The notes under the pieces were generated by a model. It was not told the DNA's origin, made no database searches, and saw only the letters and a list, made by a program, of their open reading frames with translations. This document shows, in pieces, positions 4,557 to 63,660 of a DNA stretch of 64,000 nucleotides. The translations under genes were made by a program, and so were the position numbers. Position 1 is the stretch's first letter; each line of letters begins with the position of its first letter. The stretch is from Rhizodiscina lignyota (lineage: Eukaryota > Ascomycota > Dothideomycetes > Aulographales > Rhizodiscinaceae). The DNA is taken from assembly GCA_010015805.1 (NCBI GenBank), contig ML978121.1, forward strand, positions 2,666,001 through 2,730,000. The letters run 5' to 3'.

Positions 4557-5647
4557 ATGCCTGCCCTCCCGGCAAACCCTTGGTACGAGGGCGAGCGTCG
4601 CGAGATTAAGCCAAGGAGGACTATCTGCACGACCTGCGACAGGACCATCATGAGCAAGGATTGGATCGGTCACACCAACGGCAAGATGCATCGCGAGAAG
4701 ACGGTCTTGAGGGAGATCTTGGAGAAGGCTGCTGCTGCTGGTGTCGCCAAGTCGAGTGAAGGCGCTGGCTGGGGTGCTTCCGGTGCCTCTGGTCTGACCG
4801 ACGTGACCAACAAGCCTCGTGGAGGCATGGAATGTCATAATTGCGGTCAAGGTGAGTAACACGCGCCTCAAGTCGCCCTCAAACTTTGCGCGACACGCTT
4901 TCTCGTTGTAAGGACAGACTAACTTATGTAGCCGGTCACAAGAAGAGCGACTGCACCGAGCCTCCTTCTGCGCGCAATGTTGAGTGCCGTAAGTGTCAGC
5001 AGGGTGAGTGTTTCCTTTCAACCTTTTCACTCTTCAACCTCACTCATAACACGCGATCTTCTTTTAACAACGTCACAGTTGGCCACTTCGCCAAGGACTG
5101 CCCCAAGGGTGGCTTCGCCTGCCACAACTGCGACCAGCAAGGCCACAAGTCTAAGGACTGCCCTGAGCCAAAGGTGCCCAAGTGCAAGAACTGTGACGAG
5201 CGCGGCCACATTGCGAAGGAGTGCCCGAAGCCGAAGGACTGGAGCCGCATCACTTGCAACAACTGCGGCAACACGGGTCATGGCGCTAAGCGTTGCCCAA
5301 ACCCTCCTGCCGAGCCTCAGGCGAGTGGCGGTGGATGGGGCGACAATGGCGCTGGCTCTGGAGCTTCTGGTAGCTGGGACACCAATGGTGCTGCTGCTAC
5401 TGGCGCCGCCGCTGGAGGCTGGGACAACCCAAGTACGACTGCTGAGACTGGTGCCGCTGCTACCGGCGCCGCCACTGGAGGCTGGGACAACCCAAGTACG
5501 ACTGCTGAGAATGGTACTACCGGCGAGGCTCGCAACATCGAGGGCGCCAAGGAATTCTTCGGTACATACGGCAGCGTCGACGGCAACCCGACCGGTGGAC
5601 AGTCTTCCAACAGCTGGGACGACAACAACAACGATGGTGGTTGGTGA
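4557..5647 (+). CDS. CCHC zinc-knuckle protein (CNBP/Gis2-like) with N-terminal C2H2 finger
   Basis: Likely cytoplasmic nucleic-acid-binding protein. Exons 4557-4851, 4932-5003 and 5079-5647 encode 311 residues. Near the N terminus is a C-x2-C-x11-H-x5-H finger (C24, C27, H39, H45). It is followed by five CCHC knuckles of the form C-x2-C-x4-H-x4-C, such as CHNCDQQGHKSKDC and CKNCDERGHIAKEC. The C-terminal 120 residues are low-complexity Gly/Ala/Thr/Trp, with a 21-residue unit containing GGWDNPSTTAE present twice. Yeast Gis2 and animal CNBP, built from the same knuckles, bind mRNA and affect translation; a similar role is inferred here. The extra C2H2 finger and the glycine-tryptophan tail distinguish it from Gis2. 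Both introns interrupt successive knuckles at the same codon and phase. Confidence 0.88.
5414..5510 (+). repeat. In-frame 63-bp tandem duplication in the zinc-knuckle gene
   Basis: A stretch of about 34 bases beginning GGAGGCTGGGACAACCC is identical at 5414 and 5477, a 63-bp period equal to 21 codons. The near identity points to a recent slippage event that preserved the frame. Confidence 0.8.
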
Positions 5648-34551: not shown

Positions 34552-35922
34552 CTACGTGGACGCCAAATTTACTCTAAAAATCCTCTTTGCTGTGTCCAAC
34601 TCTCCCTCTAGGTCCTCTGTCCATATCCACTTGTATATGTCCCCCATCTCCTGCCTCGCCTCAAGATTGTTCTGCACTTCCATCATGATATCCCCTGATC
34701 GTCGGGAGTACTGCACCAGTGTCTGCGTCCGTGGTCTGCGCACCGCATCATACGCCATCAGCAATGCAGGCATCTCATCCGCATCTGTCAATTCGCCGAA
34801 CAGGTTACCAAGGACAAATGCGTCCTCCATAGCCATGCCTGCGCCAGCTCCGGTATGTGGTGTCGATGCGTGTGCAGCGTCGCCCATCAACGCAACCGCC
34901 CCACTCGAATGTACGTAGGGCTCGTTGTGCGGCAGGTGGAACAGCGCCCAGCGATCACAAGGGGAAAACCTCTCCATCAGTTCAAGCGACGGCGGATGCC
35001 AACCTTTCAAATCGTGCATCATCGTCTCTTTCCCTGCCGGAAGCACCCATTGTTCGCTCGGCCAGACAGGCGGTTCACCGCTATTTGGATCCCAGCTTGG
35101 ATCGCGTCTGATAATGATCATATTGTAGAAGGCACCCCCGGAAACGGGATACTGCGCCGAGTAGCCCGTATACGCTGAGTAGAGACTGCCTGTTGTCCCT
35201 AGCTTTTCACCCAGAACTCTCTTCGCTTCTTCCGTAGGCACGAGGCAGCGATAGGCAAAGTCACCGGTATATACGGGCTCGACTTCGCGTCCTGTGCCGC
35301 GCATCACGGCCTTCCTTACGGCGGACTTGATCCCATCACACCCAATAACTACGTCTGCCGTGGCAGTCGTGCCGTCTGCGAAGGAAAGCTTGACCGCTCC
35401 TCCCTCACCACGCTCTTCTGGTGTGACAATCTCGAAATCAACAAATGTCTTCTGGAACGACACATTCTCCATCGGAATCAGCTTCACCATCTCGTCCAGA
35501 AGCTGCGCCCTGTGAACGCAACTTCTCGCTCTCGCATCCAACTTCAAATCCTCTGGATTCGAATAGGGGATCTGGTAGATGACCTCTCCTGGCTTTGCGC
35601 CCTCTGCATTGCCTCGTCCGGGCATGCCATGCCGCACGTTGAACCAGAGGGCCTCCGTTCCTGGAGAGGCATCATATGTCGCGCAGCGCTTGTAAGCTGC
35701 GATCAGTCTCTCGTCTATGAGGCCAATGGCTCGCACGGCGTTGGCGCCAGATGCGACGCCGGCCCCTATTTCAGAGAAGGCGGGCGCTGCTTCCCAGATG
35801 TGCGGGGAAAGATGAGGGTATTTGAGAAGCCCAATGGTAAGTGCCAAGCCACCAATGCCACCGCCGACGACGGCTATGCGAATCTCCTTGGGAGATTTGG
35901 TGCCATTTGTTGAAGAGCTCAT
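34552..35922 (-). CDS. FAD-dependent monooxygenase, salicylate hydroxylase-like
   Basis: Class A flavoprotein monooxygenase, 456 residues in one exon. The N-terminal Rossmann motif is IRIAVVGGGIGGLALTIGLL, with a Glu (IWEAAPAF) binding FAD ribose. The middle DG motif is DVVIGCDGIKSAVRKAVMRG. The GD motif is ALMGDAAHASTPHTGAGAGM followed by AMEDAFVLGNL. All three match the salicylate 1-monooxygenase-like group, which decarboxylates and hydroxylates aromatic acids using NAD(P)H and oxygen. The aromatic substrate is inferred from family only; a role in degrading phenolics or in secondary metabolism is possible. No signal peptide, so cytosolic. Confidence 0.9.
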   Translation of the reverse strand: MSSSTNGTKSPKEIRIAVVGGGIGGLALTIGLLKYPHLSPHIWEAAPAFSEIGAGVASGANAVRAIGLIDERLIAAYKRCATYDASPGTEALWFNVRHGMPGRGNAEGAKPGEVIYQIPYSNPEDLKLDARARSCVHRAQLLDEMVKLIPMENVSFQKTFVDFEIVTPEERGEGGAVKLSFADGTTATADVVIGCDGIKSAVRKAVMRGTGREVEPVYTGDFAYRCLVPTEEAKRVLGEKLGTTGSLYSAYTGYSAQYPVSGGAFYNMIIIRRDPSWDPNSGEPPVWPSEQWVLPAGKETMMHDLKGWHPPSLELMERFSPCDRWALFHLPHNEPYVHSSGAVALMGDAAHASTPHTGAGAGMAMEDAFVLGNLFGELTDADEMPALLMAYDAVRRPRTQTLVQYSRRSGDIMMEVQNNLEARQEMGDIYKWIWTEDLEGELDTAKRIFRVNLAST

Positions 35923-36420: not shown

Positions 36421-36427
36421 GCCCGAG

Positions 36428-36660
36428 CACGCGGGTGACAAAATAGTTGAGCCCGATTGACCTGAACGGCTGTAGTAATAATCAGCATTGTTCTTCAGCA
36501 CATACGAGAGCATCTCTAAAACCTCGATTATATAAATACTAGAGTATATTTATTAAAATCGTATAGCTTTAGTATATATAACCTATATTATCTAACGAGG
36601 ATATACATTCTCACGGTTCGATATATTACAGCCTCGACCCAACTATTTTGTCACCCACTT
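36428..36660. mobile_element. 233-bp MITE-like element, copy 1
   Basis: The ends are inverted repeats: left GGGTGACAAAATAGTTGAG (from 36433) and right CCCAACTATTTTGTCACCC (to about 36656). The element is exactly flanked by GCCCGAG at 36421-36427 and 36661-36667, a perfect 7-bp target duplication. The core is AT-rich with no coding frame, so the element is non-autonomous. A second copy of the same length and orientation lies at 38125. The superfamily cannot be assigned from a 7-bp duplication. Confidence 0.85.
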
Positions 36661-36905
36661 GCCCGAGTTACCGCAAGCTCGTTCGCCGAGCTGGTGGTGA
36701 CTCAGCAAGTTCCTACTACTTTCTCCACACCTGCCTCTCAACCATCTTCTTCGTTCCATAGAAATCATTTATGGGTTCTTGGCCGCGATGTGATGCTTCA
36801 GTGCTACCCTCGTGATTAAGCAGTGACGTCCTTCGTTCCGTTAAGCGGCGATTGCGACATGGACGGGCGGAAGATGGCGGTAGATTGAGGATGGGTAGGT
36901 TTGGA

Positions 36906-36911
36906 TATAAA
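36906..36911 (+). promoter_or_regulatory. TATA box of the quinone-oxidoreductase-like gene
   Basis: TATAAA lies 129 bp before the ATG at 37040, downstream of the first MITE-like element. Confidence 0.4.
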
Positions 36912-37039
36912 TGGAGAGGGGGAGATTTTCTTTCATTCATTGCAAATCAATTCAAATCGTGAGCTAAGTCACGTTATAATCGTCTCAATCGTCTCTCTCA
37001 TCCTCAACTTGTAATCTCGTCTTTCGCAGGATACCAACC

Positions 37040-38047
37040 ATGGCTCTTCCAAAGGTCCAAAAGGCAGTCTTCCACGACCTCAAAAACAACAATCTCTCCA
37101 TCATCTACGATTCTCCAGTCCCAGCACCGGACTTCAGGAAGCGCCAACACCTCGTCCACGTGATGACGACCTCTCCTTGCAACAATGAACTTACTTGGCC
37201 GATCAACTACCCGCACCACATGGATGCCGACCGCATCCCAATCCCATGCAATGACATGGCCGGAGTAGTCGTTGAAGCGCCCGAGGACTCTTCATTCCAA
37301 CCGGGTACTGCTGTATTCTGCCGAACGACTGCTGCAAGGACGGGAGATGCCAGAGAATACACGATTGCAATAGAAAGCGAGCTCGCGAAGAAGCCGGACT
37401 CCTTGGGATGGGACGAGGCTTGCGCTATGCCGCTCTCCGCTGAGACGGCGTGGCAATGTCTTTTTGACAAGAGTGGATTGGCTGTTCCTGGGAGTCCGCA
37501 TGTTGACGAAAATAAAGCCAAGCGCGTCCTGATCACAGGAGCATCGGGGAGCGTTGGCATGTGGGTCGTCCAGCTTGCAAAGGTGGCGGGAGTCGGCCAG
37601 ATCGTCGGCCTCGCCGGGGCTAACAGTGTGGGTTTTGTGAAGAGCTTAGGTGCTAATGAGGTCGTTGACTACAAAGCTATCAATCTCTCCACCTGGGGCG
37701 AGAGCGAAGGTGGCAAGAACAAGGTGGATCTTGTATTCGACTGTGTTGGAGGAAAGGCGCTGGGCAATTGCTGGAGCTGCGTTAAGGAGGGAGGTGTGCT
37801 GATAAGCGTCACTGATGTTCCGGAGACGTTCAAGCCGAAGGATTTCGTAGGGAACGTGACGAACTTCTTTTTCATCATGGTCTCGGATGGAAAGCAGCTG
37901 GAGAAAATTGCGGAATTGGTCGAGAAGGGTCTATGCAAGCCGTTCGTGGATAGCGTTTGGAACTTTGAGCAGTTTCAGAAGGCATTTGACCGCGTGGAGC
38001 TGAAGTCAGGATTGAAAGGAAAAGTAATCATTAAAGTTGAGGAGTAA
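37040..38047 (+). CDS. Zinc-independent medium-chain dehydrogenase/reductase (quinone oxidoreductase-like)
   Basis: 335 residues, one exon. MDR superfamily enzyme using NADPH or NADH to reduce an enone, enoyl or quinone substrate. The GroES-like half includes GVVVEAPEDSSFQPGTAVFC. The Rossmann half has the dinucleotide motif VLITGASGSVGMWVVQLAKV, then KSLGANEVVDY and LVFDCVGGKALG. The cysteine/histidine ligands of the catalytic zinc of classical alcohol dehydrogenases are absent, so the quinone-oxidoreductase/enoyl-reductase branch is favoured. Such fungal proteins are often stress-induced or sit in metabolite clusters. It is bracketed by two MITE-like elements, 373-379 bp upstream and 77 bp downstream. 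Confidence 0.88.
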   Translation: MALPKVQKAVFHDLKNNNLSIIYDSPVPAPDFRKRQHLVHVMTTSPCNNELTWPINYPHHMDADRIPIPCNDMAGVVVEAPEDSSFQPGTAVFCRTTAARTGDAREYTIAIESELAKKPDSLGWDEACAMPLSAETAWQCLFDKSGLAVPGSPHVDENKAKRVLITGASGSVGMWVVQLAKVAGVGQIVGLAGANSVGFVKSLGANEVVDYKAINLSTWGESEGGKNKVDLVFDCVGGKALGNCWSCVKEGGVLISVTDVPETFKPKDFVGNVTNFFFIMVSDGKQLEKIAELVEKGLCKPFVDSVWNFEQFQKAFDRVELKSGLKGKVIIKVEE

Positions 38048-38124
38048 CTGCTTCCCCTCGAATGTAGTGGCATCTAATAGAAGCTTTGAAGCTATTATCC
38101 TACGAGCGACTTCTGTTGGGTACC

Positions 38125-38357
38125 ACGAGGGTGACAAAATAGTGATATCCAATAAAGTTTGAATACATCTAGCAGAAGCGAGGTTTCTTCTTCAATGCTG
38201 GTAGGAGCATTTCTAAAAGGTTAATTAAATATATACTAGAGCTTATTTATCTAAAACACTTAACCTTAGGGTGTATAACGTACGTTAGTTATCGAGTATA
38301 TCCATCCTGGCGGTTCTATATATTACAGCCACGACTCAACTATTTTGTCACCCACTT
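38125..38357. mobile_element. 233-bp MITE-like element, copy 2
   Basis: Same length and orientation as copy 1. Left end GGGTGACAAAATAG (38129), right end CTCAACTATTTTGTCACCC (to 38353). Flanked by GGGTACC at 38118-38124 and 38358-38364, a perfect 7-bp duplication that extends by TT on both sides. The right halves match closely (CGGTTCTATATATTACAGCC here, CGGTTCGATATATTACAGCC in copy 1). Non-coding. An AATAAA at 38151, inside the element, lies 104 bp after the stop of the oxidoreductase gene. Confidence 0.85.
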
Positions 38358-38501
38358 GGGTACCCACACCACCAAAGTTTAGGTGCTAGTGCCCCTGCGG
38401 CCGGTACCGAGGACTTTGCCAAGAGAGCCGTCCCTGACAACACCAAAGCCAAAATCAACGTCCAGTCTATTCATCAATTGATTGGTTCTTAACTTTTTTA
38501 C

Positions 38502-38920
38502 TAAGTGTCCGTTAGGGTTTAATTAGTATATCTGGCCGATAGCGTGCGAGCAGAGCGAATGGTGATGCAATTATGCCTTGCAGCTCTTTAATTAGCTCTT
38601 ACCTTCGTATTAAGTACCCATTATGTCTTAATTGATGCATTTAGCCTGGAGGCATGCATGTAACGTGAAGGGTGATTCAATTATGCCCTAGAGATCTTTC
38701 ATTAGTTCTGACCTTCCTGCTAAGTATCCGTTATCTCTTAATTAACTTATCTGGCCAGTGGACATGTTGGTAGGGTAAAGTGTGATTCAATTATCCCCTG
38801 GAACTCTGTTATTACTTCTGACCTTCTCACGAAGCGTTCACTATGTCTTAATTAATATATCTATCCCGTCCCGGTATGGGTGGCGCGAAGGGTCATTTAA
38901 TTATGGCCTGGAGGCCCTGT
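38502..38920. repeat. Tandem array of four ~110-bp units
   Basis: Units begin at 38502 (TAAGTGTCCGTTAGGGTTTA), 38611 (TAAGTACCCATTATGTCTTA), 38721 (TAAGTATCCGTTATCTCTTA) and 38831 (GAAGCGTTCACTATGTCTTA). Periods are 109, 110 and 110 bp. Each unit also carries a GTGATTCAATTATGCCC-like block and, in most, a TTCTGACCTTC-like block at fixed offsets. Copies are about 65-75% alike. No coding frame. Confidence 0.8.
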
Positions 38921-39075
38921 AAACAAGCGAGAGCATCGGGGAAAGCTTAGAGAAGTGCAAAAGAGGCGAACCAGGGTACCGAGCCCTGGCATTTGAATGC
39001 CAATTTGTATGTCTATGAACAGAAAGTCTGGAGTCACCACGCTGCTCCGCAGCCAAGTTTTTATCCGCCGCCGCT

Positions 39076-39396
39076 CTACAGCATGCCTAGTTGGAGGCCA
39101 TGCGCTTCCTCACCAAGCCAATTGAGCATCTCCTGGTTCAAGATGAGGCCCACGTGGCCCACCGTCGCGTTGAACGCCTCAACCCCCTCCTCATTTCCCA
39201 CCGTCGCACCGCCAAGCTCATCCACGTCGTCATCGCCATCTTCCTCCTCTTCAACCTCCTCCTCGACCTCCTCCTCGACCTCCTCCTCCTGCACGAGCGC
39301 GAAGAGGGCGAGATGCTCCATTTCATCGTCCTTGAGGGCCTTCTGCGCCTTCTTCCAATCCTTGAGAACTGGTGCGGCGGAGGTGCGTGGAGACAT
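39076..39396 (-). CDS. Hypothetical acidic protein
   Basis: 106 codons from the ATG at 39396. Lys-rich start (APVLKDWKKAQKALKDDEM), then a Glu/Val heptad-like run (EEEVEEEVEEEVEEEEDGDD) and a hydrophobic tail. The opposite strand also has an open frame over the same repeat, so the case rests mainly on plausible composition. No family recognised. It could be a real small nuclear-type acidic protein or an artefact of a CTC/GAG repeat. Confidence 0.33.
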   Translation of the reverse strand: MSPRTSAAPVLKDWKKAQKALKDDEMEHLALFALVQEEEVEEEVEEEVEEEEDGDDDVDELGGATVGNEEGVEAFNATVGHVGLILNQEMLNWLGEEAHGLQLGML

Positions 39397-51748: not shown

Positions 51749-54700
51749 GCGGTTACTGAAGGCTCCTTCACAAGAGACGAAGGAGCTGCAATGTAGCTGT
51801 ACTGCATCTCCAGCGAGTGGGATGCTTACGGGGCCGCGAGGAGCAAGCACGGATGCTACGAATGTACGAGGCACGAGGGGATAATGGCCGTCTTTTCCAG
51901 ACCTCTTTCATTTTGTATGTGTATACCCCATTCTTCGGCGTCGGCGAGGCACGTTTTGATATACAGTCGGTATGGCGCTCCTAGTAACCTAGTTGAGTCT
52001 TTATTTTCCTATGCTGTCAATTTACCACCACTCCGTACAGATCGTCGCGTAAGAACACATCTTTAACACTCATCAGTTCGCCTAGCGATCGCAATCTGAA
52101 GTTCTTTGAGTGAGCAAATTAGACTGTTCTTTGTTCGTGCACGTTAATGGCATCAGAAGTCTTCGTCCTGCCTGTACCTACAACTTGGAAGCCGCATGAG
52201 CAACTCAAGCTCTCAACTTGCTCCCTTTGCCATGCGACGTCTCACGCCGTGCTTTCTCTCGCACTCACTCGCCTCGCCTCTTTCAGTGCCTTCACCACTA
52301 CTCGCTTGGCTGCTCCACACGCATCCTCTCGCGGCCGCGTCACCTCTTCTTCGCAGATATACCTTCTGTTCGACCATACCATCCATCAAGACCATGGCGA
52401 TTTGCCAGAGCGACGTCGTGTCGTCAACGCTGTTCCGAGCAAATAAACGCAAAGCGGAGCGCTAAAGGCGTGGCACCGTGTAACCCGACAGCACGGCTCC
52501 TCTCGCCTATCCTCAATGCTGTGCAACGCCGCGTGGACATGACGTTCAAGCGCGTCTCGACCCAAGCAGGAGGAGCCGAAGACGTGGTTTCGCAGCATGA
52601 GGAGGACGTGGTACCGGCCGTCATCGGGTAGGCGCGCTGATAATTGAGTATACTATAAATTCTTTCAAGGTGCGGCTTTTCATGCGGTGTAAGTGAGAGG
52701 AAGATCTGATATGCCGAGCGAAGTGAGTTGAAACTTAGGAAAGGTCCGCAAGAAGCTCTCTTAAATATCGAATGTGTGCCCAACACTGAGTCGTTGAGAA
52801 GAAGTTATTCGTCCACCAACGATCATTCAGACGCTGAAAGTCCGCTCGAGAGCCCAGACTATCCTGTGTCCCTCGTGGCTGTTGAGATCTCAGCCTCTGG
52901 ACCTCGTCATGACTGACGAAATCGATGAGGCCGGTCTCTCTATCCCGAGCTGATTGGAATTTCGAGCGGGAAGCCGCATGATGAGCAAGATGGTCAATGT
53001 GATGCTGATTGTGGTCGCACAGTGATGACGGGCGTGATAGAGATCTGTCGTACAACAGCGCTAGGAGCCGAGAGACGAGCGTGCGGATCACGGGCGAGCC
53101 AAGATGATGGTAATTGCAAGAAACGTACGTTCTGTAGGATATCGCGTGCAAGTACTGCCCACTCGAGATCAGCGAAAATCTTTTGGTTGATTCGATTCAT
53201 TGTGCATTCTGCCCAGCACCTAGATGCCCAGTCGAGCGTCTTTATGCTCTTAGCTGGGTGCCTAGGTAGTTCTCATATGGTCAAATATTGAGTTCAAGAC
53301 GGTGCGGCGTGTCATACTGTAGTGATTTGGAGTTGAGCAAAAAATGAAGCTTGTGTCCGCCCGCTGACTATGAAGATTTCATTTGGCCACTGAAGAGTTG
53401 CTAGCTTGCGCTGTCGCAGACGCGATCAATCACCGAAAGACCCCTCCCGTTTATGCCTTCATCGATTACGTCTCCCTTGGATCATCAATACCTGTCTATA
53501 CATCTCTACATCATCACAGGCATCCCATGACATGCTCTGATTCCCGAGATCCGTCTTCAAGGGAGCTACGATCCTGCCACGTCAGCACGAGAAGATCTGT
53601 CGAGTTCTTCCAAATCTTGCCAGTGTCTGGTGGATTAATGAACAACGAAACACATCCTGTTGTAGGTTACTGGACATAGAGAGGTGCTGTGTGTGACAGC
53701 ATTGGCTGCTGCTGCAGTGCAGCATGAATGTGGCGTCAATGACTCTGTGAAACAATGATATCGCGTGGACGTGCTCGCAATGCAGCGCTTATTTTTGGGT
53801 CCAATTGAGGAGACGAGGAAGGTTCGCAGGACGCCGCGTTAAACGTTCGCAGACAGCATGGCGTGGAGTTGAATGTTTACTGGGCAGAAGCGTAGAGCGC
53901 ATGATGGCGTAGACGCTTTGATGACGAGACGAGCGTCCAACGATAGTGTGGCATCGTCGCCGGTGTCTTCCTGTGATCATAACGTGCTCAGAACCAGAAT
54001 CCTCTCATGAAAGCGCGAAATTGGCAGAAAGATTGTATGCACGACGCGCAATTCGAGCGCATATCATTCGTCGCGCCTTTTGCATACAGCCTTCTCCACA
54101 GTCCGGAAATTGCAGGCGGAGTAACGTATCATGCCGAGCGTTGCGCAGAACTCCCAGACTCTTTACCTGCTCCAAATCTGGACGGAGGTATTGCGTATTG
54201 CGAATCTCTTGCAGCATTCATGCAAACCGGGGAGATTGTTAAGCTTTGCGTTCTCGACTGCTCGGTCAAAGCGTTTTCTGATAGAGCCGGATGATAGGCA
54301 AAATGGGTGCTCCTGCAAGCCGTCTGCCTAATTAGGAGGGGTAATGATAGATGACCAGATGCGTTTTCAAGTTGGGCCGGCTGGAGCATTCTGATTCACT
54401 CTGTCAAATTAGACTTCGGTGTACGGAATGCATAGCTCGAAGTTAGATGTCGTCGTCGGCGCGCTAGAATGATAGTTTAATGAGATGTGGAAAGCGAAAG
54501 GGACAAGTGCTTTGACTTTGAAGGCTTGACTCTCCACCGGTGATAATTCCATTACAAGAAACGGCGGAGTGATTCTACACCGCATCTACTCGGTGGAGGT
54601 CCCAATGGAGGAGTTGGCGCGGCCTGAGGCCGCAATTCGTGCGGCACACTGCATACTGCTGGAGCGAACTTGAAACTTACGAAGACTTGATGAGACATTC

Positions 54701-57700
54701 GTCTCATGTAATGCCTAGTCCATCAGATAGATTCTCAGGTGAGTATGCTCGGTTCTTCGGCCTTCGTCGCCGATATCACGAGCATCCGATGTGTTCATGT
54801 TGGCACTTTCGCCTTCGACCTGTCTCCCAGCTTGATGCCGACAAACGGCCCGGGTGTGCCGCACGAAACGGGCCGCAGCGTATCAATTGGACCCCACGCA
54901 CTCACGCACACCGTACATGCAAACTGAAGTCGATTGCGATTGCTCGTCGATAGTCGGTTTGTCTCCTCCGGACGTCCCATTCGAGCAAGATCAGACCATC
55001 AGACGCAGCCATTCGCACAAAGGAGCAAGCCCCTGGCTGCAGCAGGGGCTGGACGCTAGGACATGGGCAAGGGCGAGGGGCGGGAAAGCAAGGCATCCCC
55101 GTCTCGCCACGCAGCAGCCGGCAGTTGCACCTGCAAGCCACCACGATCGAGAAAATGCGCAGTCTGACTCGGGCCAGGCTGGAAATAAGGTGCACGGGCC
55201 AGGCACGTCGCAGCTGCAAGTGGGAAACGGAAACGGATGGGAGAATGCGCGCGACAGTCTCGAGAGCCAGTCCGCAAATGAGAGCGGAGTGCGCTTATGC
55301 ATGGCCGTTGAGGTTGCAAATGGTGTGAGCAGCCTCGTACGAAGAGGGGCCACTGGGAAATCAGGAGGTGGGCAGCCGATAGTGAGAGAGGGGTCGCGAA
55401 GCCTCGGTTACATAGCGCCGTCGGAAATGGCTTGAGTCTGATGGGCGAGAGTGTCGCGGTGTAGAGGCGGAAGTCGAGACGCGATGGTTGGGAGTGCGTA
55501 GGTACGCGCAATATTAACGAGGCGACCTGCGACGAACTATATATGTAGTGTTCGATGCGGAAAATTTCGAGGTACCTCGAGGGTTGTTCGGCTCGTGCCA
55601 GACCATGCTAGACTTCATGCTTCCCCATACTCGAGTCCACTCCTCCCGTTAGAAAATCCTCGAGGCTGCCTGGCTGCCGTGGAGGACCCTCAGGGCGCGG
55701 GCTGAAGGTGCGGGAAGCAAGGCTCCGAGCCCTTGAGGGTGACTTCAGAAAATTCAGCGAGAGGCTGCGAAGTGGCCGGAGAGAATCACAAGCCTCGCAA
55801 GGACCGCCGCCTTCCTCCACTTGCCGACTCCCTCCAGCTTCAGTACAGCAGACTGCCCACCCTCGAGGATGTATTTTCAGACGCCTTGGGGGTCTGGTGA
55901 TGATTGTGGAGGAAGCTGATGGGCCTGACATGCATCAGCATTGAATGTACGAAGTGGGTCCAGTTTTTGACAGGTCCAGGCCAGGGCTCGGAGAATACAA
56001 GGGCTCGCAAAACGGTGAACAGGGAGCTTATTGATGGGCCTGGCGAATTTGACAGTGGCGATCACTGGCGAGCGCAATGAACCTCGTATGCAGGAGTGCT
56101 GCCCATTCGTCACTCGCGCGTGTTTGTTTTGCTGAGAAATTGATCGCAAACGAGGCCATTGCGAAAATGGAATTCGCTCCGTCCGAATAAGGGCGAGCAA
56201 GCTGCAGCTCTGGAACTGGAATATGAGGCGGAGAGCCCGAAAACCTGCTGAGGGAAAAATGGGCCCGTATTTGCGTATTTGCCATGATTTTCATTGCAGT
56301 CGCGATCATTGATAATGTGGAGGGAGAGGCTGGGCGCGTACACTTGTAAAGATCGTCACATGGCAGCCCCATTGGGTTGTTCTTGCGGTGTGATTGCTGC
56401 ATTAGGAGAGCAGAGAATGCCAAAGCGTTAGGGCGCTCGTGTGATATCCCTTCCAGAGAGGCTGAGGCTTTGCACAAGCAGGGAGAAAGACAAGACGAAC
56501 AAGTCTCAATTCCTTGCCGCAGAGGACGCTTGCATGGCCGCCACGTGGAAGTCCCATAGCGCGCGGGTATGGCTTGCACAGGGCGCGACGAGCCGATCAC
56601 GACTCCATTGTGCTCCCTGTCGGCCGTTGAATTTCAGAATCCATGTCCGGTGCCATGTCGTTGTCTACCCTTGCCACTGCTGGGCTGTCACGGCCGCCTT
56701 CGAGAGTAAGAAGACTTAGCGCAAACGGTTTCTTTGCCAGGGAAAAGGCCTGGCTATAGCTCTCGATTCTCACCAGTAGGGTAAAAGAGAACGGGGCAGC
56801 AATAGGGCAGAGCTGCAGGCTGCCTCATTTCTGATCCCGATCAATACCACAGATGATATTACTCGAGCAATGTTTCCAGGTGTCGATCCGGCATCACTGG
56901 CTTCCGACTGCAGGATTTTCTATGATTGCTCGATGCAACACTCGTTGACGCGATGGTAGGACATGGCCGTAGCGATCGCGATCTGGAATTCTAGAGTCGC
57001 ACATGGCTTGTTTGCCAAGTGGTCGTACGCGCCCCAAACTCGAGATCGAGTCACCTAGCGGGAGTTTGCAGGAAAAAACTCCGCTGTGATGGCGAAGTGC
57101 AGAAGCAATTTCGCCGTAATCATGTGCACGTTCGATACTTTGTTGCACAAATCGCAACTGTCAGCATCGTATGTAACTTGTAATGAGTGACTCCGATTCG
57201 GGCAGTCATTCATGTCGCGCGGCGTCGCGTAGCAGTGTGGCTTTGCTTCTCCTGAAGAATATCGTCAGTTCGTCCATGGTTGTTTCAGAGCGGTGATTGG
57301 CGTGCATTCTGGAGGCGCTGAGGCTGTTCAAGCGCGTCTAGCTTGACTTTACGATAGAACTCCGAAGTTACTTTTTCACGATGGTGAAGAGCCTCCACCG
57401 GAGGAATTTCGAGCTGGTTGGTCATGAAACGCTAGTGGGTGATAGCAGGCAGTCCCTAGGACACACAGCTTCGCGTGGAAGATTCCGGCCATTAGCCGTC
57501 GATCGTACCTACAGCTGATTCTTACAGCTTAGCACACTGCTCTATACAGACATTGTGTGGCGGAAGTGAACGCTCCATTCGTAATGTTGACATTCGCGCA
57601 ACGTTATCCGCTTGGTGAAGAGTCAAGAAGATGTTGATAGTGCATAACAAGCGTCGCCAGAAGGGGAAATCGAGCGAAGGAAAAGAAAATGGTCGCGTCA

Positions 57701-62600: not shown

Positions 62601-63660
62601 AATGGCATCGAGAATCCCACACACACGTCCCCCTTCCTCCTCACTTGTTCTGTGCAACGTGCTGCAACATGAAAGCTAATTTGTCACCTCTCACTCTAGG
62701 TGGCGCCGACTATGATCCAAATTCCCACACCCACCATCATCCGCCGCCTAACGGCAACTCTCATGGCCAGGCTCCCAGTGGAGACGTCCGTCAAGCCCAC
62801 AACTTCTATCCGAACTATCCAGCTCCACCCAGCGCAAATATGGTTCCGTCTCTGCCACCAACTCACGATCCCATGGATCAATCAGGTAGCCACGGCGCTG
62901 CCCCTCATGCCGTAGCGACCTCTTCTCTCCCGAACCGCAAGGGCGGCGACGACGAAGATGATGCCGAGACGACAACGGCACTCTTTGGCGACCTTCCAGA
63001 GGCTAAGCGTCGTAAGTTCATCCTCGTGGACGACTCCCAGCGTGGCACCCGTGTCCGCGTCCGCGTGATGCTGGATCAAGTCCGCATGGCCGAGATGCCT
63101 GACTCTTACCGCAAGAACAACAGTGTCTATCCGCGCAGTTGGTTTGCGACTGAGATGCAGGACACGGAAAACCCTGGACCGCAAGGAAGGTGGCCCGAAG
63201 ACGCCGAGGACGAGGACGTTGCGCGAGGTGTGACTGGAGATGACGGCGAGAGAGTGAAGACGCATGTACCCGTCCAGATGATGGATGGCAGCGAATCTAA
63301 GGTGCCTCTCCCCAAGATGAGTCGGGGAAAGAGAAAGAAGGAGGTTGTGTTGAACGACCTGGGATACAGAATGAGCTGGAGTCAGAGCAGGGTGTTCAGT
63401 GGAAGGACGTTGTTCCTGCAGCGGTCACGTAAGTTTGCTCCCTTTTTCCTTGTCGTCTCCATTGTGAGAACACGATGAGGGAATTGCCATGGCTAACGAG
63501 TTGTCCTACAGTCGATGCCTACCGCAACAAGATGCGCTCAACAATGGTTGCCGCAGGACAAGATGTCGCAAATGTCGCGCCACACTTTGAGACCCGCGTT
63601 GGCAAGCGCAAGTGGCTGGAGCGCAGCAAGAAGACGAAGGGAAGGGAGGGTAGCCCGTAA
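59645..63660 (+). CDS. medA: Medusa (MedA/Acr1/Ren1)-like developmental regulator
   Basis: Nuclear regulator of conidiophore and cell-type development in relatives. Exons are inferred at 59645-59722, 60797-61112, 61239-62282, 62700-63428 and 63512-63660, joining in phase to 771 residues. The N-terminal third is Pro/Gln/His-rich (QHHPPGQYASPHTAPHGLPP, YPAPIYHTPQSASPASVQSP). The conserved domain begins near residue 298 (QWIAFEYSRDRVKMEYTIRC) and continues with LNPCLRGKRGLIQRAVDSWR and PRLRSRRVRRMAKISNRKA. After a 417-nt intron it resumes with RRKFILVDDSQRGTRVRVRV, RMSWSQSRVFSGRTLFLQRS and the spliced DAYRNKMRSTMVAAG end. I assign Medusa from memory of this domain (also called DUF8032). Intron 1 is 1,074 nt, unusually long for this window. 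Confidence 0.8.

Follow-up and report, generated by a model that had tools for sequence, protein, structure and literature searches.

What are the two 233-bp segments that bracket a quinone oxidoreductase-like gene in the 64-kb window (the whole stretch of DNA analysed here), and how did they come to lie on both sides of it? Copy 1 is located at 36428..36660 (36428-36661 when the terminal G is counted as part of the element) and copy 2 at 38125..38357 (38124-38358 if its ends are set to be homologous to those of copy 1). Both read on the + strand, they lie 1.7 kb apart, and each has a G+C content of 36%, against 52% in the window. We consider it highly probable that one MITE family (class II, non-autonomous) was inserted here twice, independently, its copies having been moved in trans by a transposase encoded elsewhere.

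Ends and interiors of the two copies

The motif GGGTGACAAAATAG is found exactly, at 14/14 bases, at all four element ends: 36433-36446 (+), 36643-36656 (-), 38129-38142 (+) and 38340-38353 (-). A pattern count finds these four mismatch-free occurrences in the window, which form two inverted pairs. When up to two mismatches are allowed, the count in the window rises to five matches against a shuffle mean of 0.30, and none of 100 shuffles reaches five. Inverted-repeat ends of the transposon type, as proposed in a first-pass annotation of this DNA, are thus present above chance. The fifth match, a partial end with 2 mismatches at 62676-62689, is within chance (0.30 expected), and the two-copy family profile reports no match there.

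In copy 1, the left terminal inverted repeat spans 36428..36449 (+; CACGCGGGTGACAAAATAGTTG) and the right one 36640..36661 (-; CAAGTGGGTGACAAAATAGTTG when read on the minus strand). In the alignment of the two copies, the left ends read CACG(C/A)GGGTGAC... and the right ends ...GTCACCCACTTG. Longer imperfect inverted arms can be drawn in the single copies, 26 nt long and 88% complementary in copy 1 (flank bases included), and 30 nt long and 80% complementary in the other. We also scanned the window for 14-bp inverted arms (at most 2 mismatches) bordered by a flanking repeat of at least 6 bp. Five of the six hits are the two elements under different boundaries; the sixth, at 54634-54869, has a repeat of 6 bp, and a flanking repeat of at least 7 bp is seen only at the two MITE copies. 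The same scan of four shuffles gave 3, 0, 3 and 2 hits, which, as counts alone, make a weak control by themselves.

An end-to-end alignment of the two copies has 235 columns and a single gap, and in it they are alike at 166 of 234 positions. The agreement is 19/22 in the left end, 35/67 in the left part and 112/145 in the right part. None of 1000 shuffles is as good as the right part, even without its terminal repeat, which bears out the earlier remark that the right halves are similar; 3 of 1000 reach the score of the left part. As both parts align better than shuffles, the two copies belong to one family, and either this family is old or the copies represent two subfamilies. The predicted fold of each strand pairs the ends and is better than those of its dinucleotide shuffles (z -4.77, 0/200 as good, and z -2.83, 1/200). 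At 233 bp the coding limit is about 77 aa, below the size of a transposase, and the ORF list of the window holds no ORF of at least 80 aa overlapping either element; the elements are too short to be autonomous, as had been stated at first.

Could the divergence of the copies be the work of repeat-induced point mutation (RIP)? The TA/AT ratio is 1.10 and 1.30 in the two copies against 0.64 in the window, and (CA+TG)/(AC+GT) is 0.81 and 0.79 against 1.31. Usual RIP thresholds exist for both indices, and both copies pass them, as do 17 of the 274 bins of the window. The threshold for TA/AT is quoted in PMC4112212. RIP may thus have touched the two copies. We nevertheless rejected it as the cause of their divergence, given that the differences between them comprise 37 transitions and 31 transversions and that 17/274 bins pass as well.

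Flanking duplications and the placement of the ends

Copy 1 stands between two GCCCGAG repeats (36421..36427 and 36661..36667) and copy 2 between two GGGTACC repeats (38118..38124 and 38358..38364). At 200,000 random sites of the window, a direct repeat of at least 7 bp at an offset of 240, within an 11-bp zone, arose with a frequency of 0.000775; with offsets of 237-243 and an 18-bp zone, the frequency at random window sites was 0.0056. At these rates, flanking repeats on both copies are not a product of chance.

Is the duplication truly 7 bp long? The first-pass annotation gave each copy 233 bp and its own perfect 7-bp duplication, and under its boundaries this is what one reads: GCCCGAG and GGGTACC are both present. 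However, these boundaries place the first base of copy 1 at CACGC and that of copy 2 at ACGA, two starts that are not homologous, and the equality of the two lengths depends on this placement of the ends. The distance from the left to the right flanking repeat is 240 in both copies, and the interior of copy 2 is one base longer. Consequently, once homologous ends are chosen, the duplications of the two copies differ by one base, so that the figure of 7 bp is not firm. Homologous ends give copy lengths of 232/233, 233/234 or 234/235 bp. With CA...TG ends the duplications are CCCGAG and GGTAC (6/5), and with CACG...CTT ends they are GCCCGAG and GGGTAC (7/6). With ACG...CTT ends, copy 1 has GCCCGAGC/GCCCGAGT (8 bp, one mismatch) and copy 2 has GGGTACC (7 bp). 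One minor insertion or deletion close to an end of either copy would bring back a common duplication length. The main reason why '7 bp' is premature as a classifying character is therefore that two copies cannot tell the original length of the duplication.

The hexamer GGTACC occurs at 38119, 38359, 38403 and 38975, that is, four times within 0.9 kb out of 11 occurrences in the whole window. Two of these four sit inside the flanking repeats of copy 2.

Insertion history and surroundings

The two copies are homologous, carry inverted ends and flanking repeats, and occupy separate target sites. From this we infer movement in trans by a transposase. Such an enzyme, encoded elsewhere in the genome now or formerly, would recognise the ends of about 22 bp (CAnGnGGGTGACAAAATAGTTG-like), the element itself supplying these ends only. 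Each copy would have been inserted separately at staggered cuts, and repair of the gaps would have left duplications of about 7 bp.

Two other histories have to be weighed against separate insertions. The copies share orientation and length and lie just 1.7 kb apart, as one segmental duplication, or chance inverted repeats, might have it. Yet unlike 7-mers adjoin each copy and the likeness halts at the element ends, which excludes a segmental duplication in practice and upholds the initial view of two separate insertions, while the GGGTGACAAAATAG ends exceed what shuffles lead one to expect from chance; we hold this pair of explanations to be extremely improbable. It is also very improbable that the pair forms, or once formed, a composite element that moves the dehydrogenase gene enclosed by it. 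The outermost ends (36428-36451 and 38335-38358) do form a better inverted pair, 24 nt long and 92% complementary, than those of the single copies (26 nt, 88%, and 30 nt, 80%). However, the outer flanks of such a unit differ (GCCCGAG versus GGGTACC), whereas the flanks of each single copy match, and therefore no composite unit was inserted here as one piece. Independent insertion of each copy remains by far our preferred reading.

The gene between the copies (37040..38047, +) is a single ORF of 335 aa of the zinc-binding-dehydrogenase family, quinone oxidoreductase-like, and is not a part of the element. It matches Pfam ADH_zinc_N_2 (E 1.2e-21), its best PDB match is 5a3j, a putative quinone-oxidoreductase homolog (E 4.3e-27), and its predicted product is an ordinary enzyme of the family. 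Copy 1 lies 379 bp before its ATG, in the 5' region that it has in common with a divergent FAD-binding monooxygenase-like ORF (34552-35922, -), whose own ATG is 505 bp from copy 1. Copy 2 starts 77 bp past the stop codon of the dehydrogenase. A preference of the family for promoters and 3' flanks had been suggested on the strength of these positions; with n=2 insertions it is unsupported.

Further genes of the window encode a protein like DNA polymerase eta that bears a ubiquitin-binding zinc finger, a MARCHF6-type E3 ligase, the mitochondrial ribosomal protein L31, a GMC oxidoreductase and a sugar transporter. A gene content of this kind suggests fungal DNA, probably from one of the filamentous ascomycetes. 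From about 130 bp past copy 2, at 38490-38930, there is a diverged array of about four 110-bp units placed head to tail, some 65-75% alike; no inverted repeats were reported around them in 38350-39100. An ORF at 4856-5644 (+) encodes CCHC zinc knuckles (Pfam zf-CCHC, E 6e-19, 3 stretches) and overlaps a 63-bp tandem repeat at 5384-5515. Searches of the window for tRNAs, and for Rfam families above their thresholds, found none.

No third copy was detected in the 64-kb window with nhmmer and a profile built from the two copies. After the copies themselves, the profile scores best on the reverse strands of the two (E 7.9e-6 and 0.045), and the next match is at E = 5. The reverse-strand match of copy 1 (36428-36660) to the profile covers the whole element (20.8 bits) and may come mostly from its ends; it is a hint of an overall palindromic origin. 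None of the 34 window ORFs scanned (30 of the 37 stop-to-stop ORFs of at least 170 aa, plus 4 shorter ones) matches a Pfam transposase model, and intron-broken genes could still hide one.

Exact patterns (the paired ends, and a degenerate single end) had 0 matches in viral contigs, and blastn gave no match in plasmids. In prokaryotic genomes the end pattern gave 5 single matches, against about 3.7 expected by chance from 18.5 specified bases, 257 Gb and two strands. An opposite-orientation partner end (at most 3 mismatches) was found near 0/5 of them, one locus (L005) having only 28 bases on the partner side; at another (L002) a further end, with 3 mismatches, points the same way as the first. 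We read these five matches as chance and not as family copies. A search of the open-licence literature for the element ends as text found no record of them as a transposon: the full end sequences led to one paper, on human embryonic stem cells, and shorter forms, in the context of transposable elements, to none.

Affiliation of the family and known systems

To which superfamily would the transposase belong? Our first guess is a hAT-type enzyme with a duplication of 5-8 bp, and in our judgement a broadly defined hAT group (with an eroded 8-bp duplication, or the branches with 5, 6 or 7 bp) is the best fit. hAT elements start with CAGNG. The ends here read CACGC, CACGA and CAAGT or, one base in, ACGCG, ACGAG and AAGTG, which come near this motif and do not reproduce it; for this reason we do not file the family under hAT. 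A TA duplication of the Tc1/mariner (mimp) type is excluded, since GCCCGAG has no TA and the TA of GGGTACC does not abut the ends.

Within the reading of two MITE insertions, a hAT-derived element with the standard 8-bp duplication, one change having eroded each copy, is possible although rather doubtful. The ACG...CTT ends give copy 1 the flanks GCCCGAGC/GCCCGAGT, alike at 7/8 positions; the right flank of copy 2 is then GGGTACCC, and one C would have been deleted from a CCC run in its left flank, GGGTACC. The element ends become A(C/A)GNGGG, near CAGNG, but their first base is A and not C. Moreover, 8 bp requires one change per copy, hence two, against one for a duplication of 7 bp, which is perfect on both copies under the boundaries first drawn. 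As to the target, GGGTACCC fits nnnTAnnn, whereas GCCCGAGC does not match it; nnnTAnnn is the Buster-type target, described for TcBuster and for the Mar MITE of Drosophila (PMC3517528, PMC10512250).

The flanking repeat of copy 2 can also be extended to 9 bp, TTGGGTACC, at 38116-38124 and 38356-38364. Mutator (MULE) duplications measure about 9-11 bp, and a Mutator-type MITE with a 9-bp duplication would account for this reading. But copy 1 has a 7-bp repeat, and its 9-bp flanks, CAGCCCGAG/TTGCCCGAG, are alike at 7/9 positions (2 mismatches), so that we take a Mutator origin to be improbable.

The source might well be a lineage whose duplications are truly 7 bp (or 5-7 bp) long, be it hAT7-like, hAT5/6-like or Kyakuja-like, though we would stop short of calling this probable. 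Both copies have perfect 7-bp repeats under the boundaries of the first-pass annotation, and the outermost bases common to the two are CA...TG. Duplications of 5, 6 and 7 bp are given for hAT5, hAT6 and hAT7, respectively, and both hAT7 (7 bp) and Kyakuja (7 bp, CA..TG) are published from fungi (PMC12730594), which puts out of date the earlier statement that a 7-bp duplication fits no class. On the other hand, hAT7 is reported there from rust fungi (Puccinia, Melampsora), and Kyakuja is described without terminal inverted repeats (PMC12730594). With inverted repeats of about 22 bp, our elements do not fit that description of Kyakuja (KDZ). We regard as unlikely the more specific proposal that the copies are traces of a DNA-transposon lineage of filamentous ascomycetes that is yet to be described, distinct from the hAT7 lineage of rust fungi and characterised by GGGTGACAAAATAG ends and a true, fixed duplication of 7 bp (or 5-7 bp).

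That a fungal MITE family, as yet unclassified, was inserted twice is an ordinary event of a common kind, and alone the two insertions carry little weight, MITEs near genes being already known in fungi. If a fixed 7-bp duplication in an ascomycete proved true, it would lengthen the short list of lineages with that cut spacing. Furthermore, copy 1 in a shared 5' region and copy 2 behind a stop codon offer simple test cases for the effect of MITEs on expression and on transcript ends.

How do these elements compare with known ones? The mimp/impala MITEs of Fusarium are about 220 bp long, with inverted ends of about 27 bp starting with CAGTGGG, a location near genes and a TA duplication. Our copies resemble mimp in length, in their inverted ends and in their position near genes, but have a flanking repeat of about 7 bp, which in copy 1 contains no TA. 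With the hAT7 elements of rust fungi (PMC12730594) they share 7-bp duplications in a fungus; unlike them, as far as a comparison by description and not by ends can go, they code for no transposase, whereas hAT7 does and twenty of its families also carry a TET/JBP gene. The likeness to the Kyakuja of Laccaria bicolor consists in 7-bp duplications and CA...TG termini, and the difference in the inverted repeats of about 22 bp found here (PMC12730594).

In Mycosphaerella graminicola (Zymoseptoria tritici), 13 MITE families have been described (PMC4522978). For the 12 whose duplication is stated there, it measures 2 bp in nine, 5-6 bp in two and 8-9 bp in one, so that the repeat of about 7 bp seen here, compared by description only, has a size absent from those stated. 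These MITEs are commoner in gene-rich regions, and the same article refers to a study of Epichloe for a bias of insertions towards the 5' regions of genes (PMC4522978). Finally, some of the M. graminicola families have common ends and a common duplication with different interiors (PMC4522978), and our two copies are like them in sharing their ends while their interiors differ, as the left parts partly do.
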